Assembly: GCA_034687125.1 (NCBI GenBank)
Contig: JAQGBZ010000007.1
Span: forward strand, 434,001 to 498,000
DNA length: 64,000 nt
Origin: Neelides folsomi
Lineage: Eukaryota; Arthropoda; Collembola; Neelipleona; Neelidae
Direction of reading: 5' to 3'
This document shows, piece after piece, positions 10,853 to 18,941 of the stretch. Position numbers and translations under genes: made by a program. Numbering within the stretch: the first letter of the stretch is position 1; each line of letters starts with the position of its first letter. The notes below the pieces were generated by a model. That model saw only the letters and a program-made list of their open reading frames with translations, searched no databases and was not told where the DNA came from.

Positions 10853-12133
10853 TCATCCAGTCATGAATCTTGAAAGGGCGAGGTTTGAAAGGAGGCTTCC
10901 AACTTGTGAATAGACTTTGTTCTCCGTCGTTACTTTGGCGTCATGAAGGATCTCATCACTGCACATCTTGTTAAATTTCCCACAGATATTTGACTTCGGA
11001 TCTGAAGTGATCTCGGGAGCGACGAATCTTGTAATTGTAGATCTAAAGAAGAAAGTTCAAGTAAATAATACCTGTATATGTGTAGTATTTGTAGTTTTAA
11101 CACTAAACCAATATTATGTCATTTTATCATAATCACCCTTTTAATCATATATGATTAAAAAGGTAAATAAGGTTTAAATCAGGTTAAACAATGATTAGAT
11201 TTGTTCAAAAATGATAAGTTGAATAAAATTGTTAAGTTAAAGTTAAATGATAAAATCATTAGATGAAAAGATATGTCAAATGGTTTTTCCGTCCTTTACA
11301 GCATAATGTCAAAGATTCTGTTTCGGATTGAAGATGAATTTTCTTCACGGGCTTGCATAGCTGCCATGTAATTGCAAACAACCTTTTTGATACAAATGTT
11401 CCTCTTCTTGTTTGGCAAATAGTACAACGACCCAACATTTTCAAAAAACTTTGAAAAACTTGGTCCCTCTTCCTCTTCCCACATTGACCTACTCCAAACA
11501 AATCATTATTTTATATTAAACTTACGTTTTTACTAAATTATTCAATATTGCAATTATTTTCATTGATTCATTAATCACATCTTGATTCATTAATCACAGT
11601 TTTAATATTATTAAAACTGATAAAAAACAAAGGTTATGAATATCGCTAATTTATTGAACGTAAAAAATGAATTGATGTGTTAAAATTTGCAAACCTGAGC
11701 CGGTCAACAGATCGTCCAAATGGTCCGGCTTGATCGCTGAGTTCTAATGGAATGTTCATATCAAAGACGTCAATGGATCTCCCAGATCCCGAGTTTGCCT
11801 TCAGCAGCTGCAGAATGTTGTTGATGAGGAAAGCACCAAGGGCGAGGAGGGAAATGATGGAGACGGGGTCGAGCGTGATCGCCCCGTTTCCGCCTCCTCC
11901 TTGGTAACCTTTGGCCTCTCCATGGCTGCTCGTGCCTAGGATTCATCCACTTACATAAATAAAAGATTCCAAGAGAAGGATTTAACGTTACTGGCAGCCG
12001 CTTGGAGCGAAAAATGCTTCAACTTCCCAATGTAATCACTAAACTTTGAGGAAATGAGATGAGCCAAAGGCCGGCCGGCCTCCACCGCGCCGAACACCAC
12101 GACGAGGACGAGGAGAAGGGAAATGAACTTCAT
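10853..12133 (-). CDS. Secreted/membrane-anchored array protein 1 (four-Cys, LDPxSI family)
   Basis: Exons 12133-11992, 11935-11695, 11488-11300 and 11042-10853 join in phase to 253 aa. A clear signal peptide opens the protein ('MKFISLLLVLVVVFGAVEA'). A short Gly-rich stretch is followed by 'LDPVSIISLLALGAFL', a hydrophobic helix long enough to span a membrane, then 'GRSIDVFDMNIPLELSD', which recurs almost unchanged in the array gene at 17-19 kb. The C-terminal half has two cysteine pairs, 'CIKKVVC' and 'CGKFNKMC'. I do not recognise a named family. It is the first of five same-strand paralogues, so local tandem duplication is likely. Low similarity between copies outside the helix and cysteine regions suggests old duplication or fast divergence. 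Secretion or surface anchoring in cuticle-making or glandular epithelium is only a guess from composition. Confidence 0.75.
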
Positions 12134-17095: not shown

Positions 17096-18941
17096 TTAGA
17101 GCTTGTGGGAAGTGGGGCATTCCTTCACCACCTTGTCACAGTTCACGTCCTCGCCCTTCTCCACTCGCTTCCGGATCGACCTCACAAACTCGCTGGCTGA
17201 CTTGTCCTTCACAAAAGCTCCGAGCCCGAACCTGGAACATTTCAATGTGCAAAAGCCCCTCCGTCCAACCCTTACATGTAGAGCTTGGTGAGATATCCCT
17301 CGTCGTCGTCCTCCTCGACCGCCAAGCGACACATGTAGACCTTAGCACAGGCCGGCTTCTCGACCACGTTCTTGTACCCTACATAGAGCCTGTCGAGCTT
17401 TTCAAGGATGGCCGCAAAGGTCGAGTCCTCCTCGGCCCCGCGCTTGTTCCTCACCGTCGGCGTCCCCAGGATTCTCTGGACAGAGGGAGATGAGCGGAGG
17501 CGAGGAAAGAGCCGGGACTTACGTCCAAAGAGTTCATGAACTTAGTGTCTGGGACATGGAAGTCAGAGAGGGCGAGGGGAGTGTTGAGGTCAACAACGTC
17601 TAGAGAGCGGGCGGACGTGTTAAGCAGAGTGAGGAGGAGCTGCAAAAGAAAAGCACCAAAGGCGAGTGCAGCAAGGAGAGAGAAAGGGTCGAGGCCGCCG
17701 TAAGAGCCGCTCCTGAAACACCAGTCCTCATTGTCATTGTCAGGGGAAAGGAATGAGTTGATTCGGTCAGGGACAGTTCAACGTCGTCAATGCTCCTCTG
17801 TGGAGAAAGACAACTTACGTCCTCCGACCCTCCGTTCCCAACGATGTCAGACAGACCCAGCGGGACATCGAGGTCGAAAACGTCGAGCGACCTTCCACTG
17901 GCCGCATTCGAATTGTTCAACAAATTGAATATGACATTAAATAGAAAGACGCCGAAGCCGAGGGTGGCCAGAATGGCATACGGATCCAAATAATTCCTGC
18001 CCAGTGGTCAATTCAATTTCATCTTCCAACAATCCAACATTGGCGAAGGAATGGTTAACAACAACAAAATTTGGAGTTACCGCGGAGACTTACCCATAGC
18101 TGACATGATGTCCGTAGCCGCCTCCGCCATGGCCGTAGCTCTCGTGCCCGTATCCTCCGCGGCTCTCCATGGCGTCCTCGCCCATGTTCCCGACCACACG
18201 GTTCGTCAGCTTCTTGACCGTCACCATTCCCTGGAGGAGGGTTTTGGCTGCAGAGGTAAGATTTGCCACAGGGTCAGACTCTTCGATCGGGGCTCCGTCT
18301 CTATATTTCTTCAGCTCTTCCAGTCCGTAGCCCATCAGCTCCATGATCCCTGTCTTTTGACCGTCTCGTTTGTTCTGTTGTTGGTCCCAAAATTCCACCA
18401 TGCGATTTCCGGAAGACACGAGGTGTTTGAGAGGGCCGAGGAAGCTCTTGGGCATTTCTTGGTCAACCAACCCGATGAGCTTCTGTGTTACAATTGCACT
18501 CATGACAGTGTTGAATCCTTGGCCCAGGAGCTGAAAAGGCCCGTTGTCGACACTCGGTTTCTTCGGGGATGTCTGAGACCCGTCGCGGGTCTTTGGTTCG
18601 CCCCACTTCCCACCCGCTGTCGTCCCGTTCGATTCATAGGTGTTGAAGGAGTTGAAAGAATTGAGGGCCTCGGTCTTGGCCCAGCTCTTTTCTCCCGTCT
18701 TCTTCTTGATGGTTTTGTGCCTCGGGAATTCCTTGGTCACTTCGGACGGAGAATAGTGGAAGGCATAGCCACGCGACTCCTTCTTCGGGGCGGGGGCCAC
18801 TCCACGGACCATTTTGGTCCGAAGATCGTAGAGAGTCCCGAGCTGCCCTTGCACCACCCGCCCGACCGAATTCATGTCCACCTGGGAGGAGAGGGGGAGG
18901 GAAAGACACGACACGACGAGGACTGCAGCGAAAGTCTTCAT
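17096..18941 (-). CDS. Secreted Gly/His-rich array protein 3 with two alternative internal exons
   Basis: Exon 1 (18941-18094) carries the signal peptide 'MKTFAAVLVVSCLSLPLSS', ~200 residues of unfamiliar sequence, two amphipathic or hydrophobic stretches, and a Gly/His/Tyr tail ('GYGHESYGHGGGGYGHH'), and ends in phase 2. Exons 2a (17996-17819) and 2b (17712-17523) are homologous to each other. Each encodes 'LDP(Y/F)(A/S)xLA-L-FG-FL' plus 'RSLDVxDLxxPLxLSD'. Exon 4 (17475-17276) and exon 5 (17231-17096) encode a Cys-paired domain ('CAKVYMC', 'CDKVVKEC'). With 2a the protein is 453 aa, with 2b 457 aa. Phase permits either 2a or 2b but not both: joining 2a to 2b shifts the frame and hits a stop inside 2b. 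Introns are very short (97, 106, 47 and 44 bp). A TATA-like box lies 58 bp upstream of the ATG. Function is unknown; extracellular or surface-anchored is inferred. Confidence 0.8.
17523..17712 (-). other. Alternative exon 2b of array gene 3
   Basis: 190 nt with the same entry and exit phases as exon 2a (acceptor GTTTCAG, donor GAC|GTAAGT). It encodes 'GGLDPFSLLAALAFGAFL' and 'RSLDVVDLNTPLALSD'. Read after exon 2a instead of exon 1, it would be out of frame and reach a TAA, so inclusion of both is unproductive. Confidence 0.75.
17819..17996 (-). other. Alternative exon 2a of array gene 3
   Basis: 178 nt. It enters in phase 2, completing a Gly codon with exon 1, and leaves in phase 0 at GAC|GTAAGT. 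The acceptor is CTGGGCAG. It encodes a ~20-residue hydrophobic helix after 'NYLDPYAILATLGFG' and then 'GRSLDVFDLDVPLGLSD'. It is homologous to exon 2b, 106 bp downstream. Confidence 0.75.

Follow-up and report, generated by a model that had tools for sequence, protein, structure and literature searches.

A probable pair of tandemly duplicated, mutually exclusive exons in an uncharacterised arthropod gene

Gene 3 of the window (the whole stretch of DNA analysed, 64,000 nucleotides long) contains two neighbouring internal exons, 2a and 2b, which resemble each other and have further exons on either side. The question raised by this locus is whether a single transcript can make use of both exons, or whether the gene produces two proteins by using either one or the other. 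The splice sites and models of gene 3, and of the second gene described below, were inferred from sequence. Gene 3 is organised as follows:

18094..18941, minus strand: exon 1, 848 nt, ending in phase 2
17997..18093, minus strand: intron 1, 97 nt, GTAAGT...GGGCAG
17819..17996, minus strand: exon 2a, 178 nt, entered in phase 2 and left in phase 0
17713..17818, minus strand: intron 2a-2b, 106 nt, GTAAGT...TTTCAG
17523..17712, minus strand: exon 2b, 190 nt, with the same phases as 2a
17476..17522, minus strand: intron 3, 47 nt, GTAAGT...GTCCAG
17276..17475, minus strand: exon 4, encoding RNKR (17451-17440) and then the Cys pair CAKVYMC
17232..17275, minus strand: intron 4, 44 nt, GTAAGG...TTCCAG
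17096..17231, minus strand: exon 5, the C-terminal end with a second Cys pair, up to the stop codon

Exon 1 encodes a hydrophobic N-terminus, which reads by eye as a putative signal peptide, and ends in a Gly/Tyr/His-rich region. Both 2a and 2b encode a hydrophobic helix (Kyte-Doolittle maxima over 19 residues of 2.15 and 2.43, respectively), together with GRSLDVFDLDVPLGLSD in 2a and ARSLDVVDLNTPLALSD in 2b, and the motif RSLDVxDLxxPLxLSD is found in both. In gene 3 as in the second gene, the two exons have GT-AG borders, compatible splice sites and the same frame at both ends. The lengths of 2a and 2b are both 1 mod 3 and differ by 12 nt, i.e. by whole codons. The pyrimidine content of their acceptors is low (0.47 for 2a and 0.41 for 2b).

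These phases have a simple consequence, which an earlier note on this DNA had pointed out and which we recomputed: its coordinates, like its reasoning on phases, are correct for the splice sites it named. Each of the two exons completes the codon that exon 1 leaves unfinished and exits in phase 0, so that either alone would give a full protein, of 453 residues with 2a and 457 with 2b. When 2a and 2b are joined at their standard sites, translation stops after 372 residues, within 2b; when neither is included, it stops after 290 residues, and when the 2a-2b intron is retained, after 414. Each productive transcript would thus be expected to carry one of the two exons, while inclusion of both or of neither would shift the frame and presumably lead to nonsense-mediated decay or to a truncated product. 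We consider it likely, from the sequence, that 2a and 2b arose by tandem duplication and form a frame-incompatible pair of mutually exclusive exons in a probably secreted or membrane-associated protein.

That 2a and 2b are copies of one exon, as previously proposed, is borne out by comparison of their products: 26 of 44 residues are identical, with a BLOSUM62 score of 122 that none of 1000 shuffles equalled. The two differ at a proportion of 0.26 of nonsynonymous sites (pN) and 0.82 of synonymous sites (pS). Since the synonymous sites are saturated while pN is 0.26, the pair must be old and under selection on the protein, and is neither a recent duplicate nor an assembly duplicate. We found no further copies, by the exon criteria given below, in introns 1, 3 and 4 of either gene. 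Neither did the intron flanks reveal the edges of the duplicated unit, as nothing in them was alike beyond chance: 45 of 300 shuffles did as well as the alignment of intron 2 with intron 1, and 172 of 300 as well as that of intron 2 with a stretch made up of intron 3 and the opening 60 nt of exon 4.

A search of the source assembly (75,104,828 bases in 840 contigs) with exon 2a gave a match of 80% identity on another contig, C479. The match belongs to a second gene, a diverged copy with the exon order and phases of gene 3, which lies in a locus (L010) whose G+C content is 0.30:

L010 19332-18344: exon 1 of the second gene, 989 nt, phase 2
L010 17629-17440: exon 2a', 190 nt
L010, between 2a' and 2b': intron of 550 nt
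L010 16889-16733: exon 2b', 157 nt
L010, between 2b' and exon 4': intron of 367 nt
L010 16365-16208: exon 4', followed by a 164-nt intron and exon 5'

The frame incompatibility is found here too: the protein would comprise 485 residues with 2a' or 474 with 2b', whereas translation stops after 397 residues when both exons are included and after 345 when neither is. Corresponding exons differ in length by whole codons (12 nt for 2a and 2a', 33 nt for 2b and 2b'). As regards exon 1, 109 of 260 aligned residues are shared between the two genes, and a genome search gave an E value of 5.4e-42 for its second half. Between exons 4 and 4' there is a weak resemblance (7 identities in 21 aligned positions, a figure from the alignment alone); they are linked by their place, their Cys pairs and an RxKR motif. 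Exons 4-5 of gene 3, used as a genome query, did not find the second gene, gene 3 alone being among the matches listed. The exon 1 query had gene 3 and the C479 gene among the matches listed; those with 2a, 2b and the corresponding exon of gene 5, a neighbour of gene 3, each found the same exons, at least 4 in number, and those with 2b' and with the gene-1 exon had only the query itself among the matches listed. Note that C479 may come from another species in the assembly, in which case the comparison would still be one of two diverged genes. Upstream of the second gene on the same contig, two loci (L018 and L019) contain repeated open frames that look, to our eye, like membrane-bound O-acyltransferases.

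The exclusive use of the two exons put forward by the earlier note is backed by the architecture of gene 3 and by the diverged second gene, in which the pairing of exons and the phases recur; that the animal uses the exons in this way is our inference from both. As to the age of the pair, 2b' is closest to 2b (14 of 30 residues identical, score 54, 0/1000 shuffles as good); it also matches 2a' (12 of 30 identical, 2/1000 shuffles as good) and is not clearly like 2a (54/1000) or the gene-5 exon (172/1000). The exon duplication is therefore probably older than the gene duplication, i.e. the 2a/2b pair would predate the event that gave rise to the C479 gene.

The four exon copies are not equally conserved, however, and this bears on another reading of the locus, in which 2a does the work while 2b is a dying duplicate, rarely or never spliced in, whose open frame is a leftover. 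Indeed, conservation between the genes is far higher for 2a (38 of 49 residues identical to 2a', dN 0.18, dS 1.81) than for 2b, and most of the RSLDVxDLxxPLxLSD motif is gone in 2b'. Against this, 2b has kept its helix, motif, splice sites and frame despite saturation with respect to 2a, and 2b' has kept its helix, open frame, splice sites and phases. In all six pairs of exon copies pN is lower than pS, although by a smaller margin for 2b' against 2a (0.40 and 0.63) and against 2a' (0.37 and 0.63), values that rest on 30 codons chosen by local alignment, with synonymous sites near or at saturation. Such an exon is also rare in shuffled sequence: in dinucleotide shuffles of the stretch from 2a to exon 4, a comparable exon (140-205 nt, [CT]AG and GT[AG]AG borders, length 1 mod 3, open, with a hydrophobic window of at least 1.6) appeared in 0/1000 cases for gene 3 and 2/1000 for the second gene, figures that flatter the case since the criteria were set after the exons had been seen. 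We hold decay of 2b to be unlikely, and prefer to regard 2a and 2b as alternately used exons, of which 2b may be the minor or changing one, given that 2b' is less conserved than 2a'.

A separate observation concerns base composition: exon 2b (17523-17712) is rich in pyrimidines (0.69, compared with 0.45 in exon 1) and 52% of its third codon positions are C, a bias that 2b' does not share (21%, with pyrimidines at 0.52).

The frame lock has gaps. The claim that double inclusion is unproductive holds at the named splice sites, but three AGs, ending at 17727, 17640 and 17541, would allow 2a to be joined, in frame and with the frame open, to all or part of 2b. The first, a GAG, lies 14 nt upstream of 2b, and the other two lie within it. 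The second of the three is listed here as a feature:

17640..17641, minus strand: acceptor-like AG within 2b, CTTTTCTTTTGCAG, whose use after 2a would be in frame and retain the final 117 nt of 2b

An alternative acceptor such as this one could include both exons in a further in-frame product, and the pair would then not be strictly exclusive. Among the three AGs, the pyrimidine tract is best at the 17640 site (0.76, compared with 0.41 for the acceptor of 2b itself), and in the second gene, too, there are AGs that are in frame and open, one 32 nt upstream of 2b' and two within it, at 16 and 133 nt. On the other hand, the internal CAG at 17640 corresponds to an aligned CAA codon in the second gene, so that the site is not common to both, the site 14 nt upstream of 2b is a GAG, and, with about one AG in three falling in a suitable phase, chance alone would be expected to yield a few of them. 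In view of this, we deem double inclusion through such a site distinctly improbable, and retain the reading in which one exon or the other is used. Another good-looking acceptor, TTGTCTTTCTCCACAG (17798-17818), ends 21 nt past the 2a donor; if exon 1 were joined to it, the frame would run into a stop about ten codons on, as worked out by hand, and the site is possibly a decoy.

The frame lock would suppress the wrong products without itself blocking the joining of 2a to 2b, which leads to the question of how exclusivity might be enforced. Comparison with the U12 consensus revealed no U12-type donor among the eight donors of the two genes (GTAAGT, GTAAGA, GTAAGG or GTGAGT). The earlier note had invoked steric hindrance between the splice sites of the short 2a-2b intron. 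Gene 3 does resemble the short-intron type in its 106-nt intron and in a branch-like CTGAC 52 nt from the donor, near the 50-nt limit given in the available text of PMC5740500; in addition, a TTGAC read by eye is found about 33 nt from the 2a donor, outside the scanned part. The scan covered the last 70 nt of each intron and found two CTGAC motifs in the 2a-2b intron, the other being 79 nt from the donor; it is weak evidence, as it found no motif in introns 3 and 4 and is therefore unreliable, so that it placed no branch point with confidence. Gene 3 departs from the steric type in its inferred introns of 44 and 47 nt, and the second gene in its matching intron of 550 nt. These lengths speak against steric hindrance as the likely mechanism, and we give it very little credence as the means of enforcing exclusivity.

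Competing RNA structures, i.e. docking and selector sequences as in Dscam, are another conceivable mechanism, and several genes whose exons are mutually exclusive make use of RNA structure, according to the part of PMC6071210 at our disposal. We compared the duplex energies of ten intron/exon pairings with those of shuffled sequences (100 shuffles for gene 3 and 40 for the second gene): the z values ranged from -1.44 to 1.62, with no excess of pairing, although the power of a comparison limited to two genes is low. The intron 1/intron 2 and intron 2/2b' pairings of the second gene speak somewhat for such structures, being reached by 7% of the 40 shuffles, but the alignment of introns 1-3 between the two genes did not exceed chance. 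This mechanism, too, strikes us as highly unlikely here.

Irrespective of how exclusivity might be enforced, the arrangement is of a well-known kind, of which gene 3 would be a further example; this assessment is based on the architecture, the gene itself being nameless. The accessible portion of PMC3228551, which covers Mhc and Dscam, defines tandem-duplicated mutually exclusive exons as neighbouring, homologous, similar in length and identical in phases, and counts, among 16180 exons on the X chromosome of D. melanogaster, 90 (0.56%) that were constitutive or differentially included and fitted this pattern of length, frame and homology. Like this class, exons 2a and 2b are neighbouring internal exons with homology, similar length and shared phases at their ends; they differ from it in that gene 3 has two copies only, that its isoform A has no Pfam match and that one exon per transcript is, for gene 3, a prediction. 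In human, as far as the available text of PMC5740500 goes, 377 clusters (60%; the legend counts 629) are frame-incompatible, potential steric interference concerns 57 clusters (9%), and reads joining the exons were found in 83 of the 377 frame-incompatible clusters. Gene 3 shares with these the frame shift upon joint inclusion; unlike them, it is an uncharacterised arthropod gene, in which skipping both exons is also out of frame. An arthropod source is suggested by 39 matches to the family Chitin_bind_4. A paper search centred on copepods gave nothing on gene 3. The locus illustrates clearly, and in a form that lends itself to testing, how a duplicated exon whose phases are unequal may persist when its copies are used in alternation, with a pair of this type in two diverged genes of one assembly, and it draws attention to a gene without a Pfam match in which the part exchanged is a hydrophobic helix.

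What the exchange might do is more speculative. The switch would swap one hydrophobic helix and the linker that follows, just upstream of an RxKR motif and of a tail with two Cys pairs. The motif occurs early in exon 4 as RNKR (17440-17451), and, in the second gene, as RPKR at a comparable position of exon 4', with Cys pairs downstream of it in both genes. RxKR is the consensus of furin-type cleavage. It could be that the choice between two helices ahead of this furin-like site decides whether the Cys tail is anchored, cleaved or released, and that this switch was kept through the gene duplication; we find this doubtful. If the N-terminus is a signal peptide, as it looks by eye, and a single helix spans the membrane, the RxKR motif would be expected in the cytosol, where furin does not act; this would mean that the helix does not cross the membrane, or else that RxKR is no cleavage site.

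Database searches left isoform A without a family. The Pfam search covered isoform A of gene 3, gene 1 and gene 4: with E values up to 5 it found no family for the first two, and for gene 4 it gave one match, to HRG, with an E value of 0.13, below the cut-off. Isoform A had 0 matches by sequence in the Protein Data Bank with E values up to 10. Structure prediction for exon 1 was useless, with a mean pLDDT of 34.8 for the two sequences.

Gene 3 belongs to a row of five genes between 10850 and 24910, all on the minus strand. According to models drawn by eye, a hydrophobic helix of similar type is encoded by each of them, and genes 1, 3 and 5 of this row also end in two Cys pairs. In gene 5, the same phase-2 junction is obtained, in frame, if the 29 nt at 11926-11954 (GTAAGT...GCAG) are removed as an intron, which, read by eye, would be an unusually short one.
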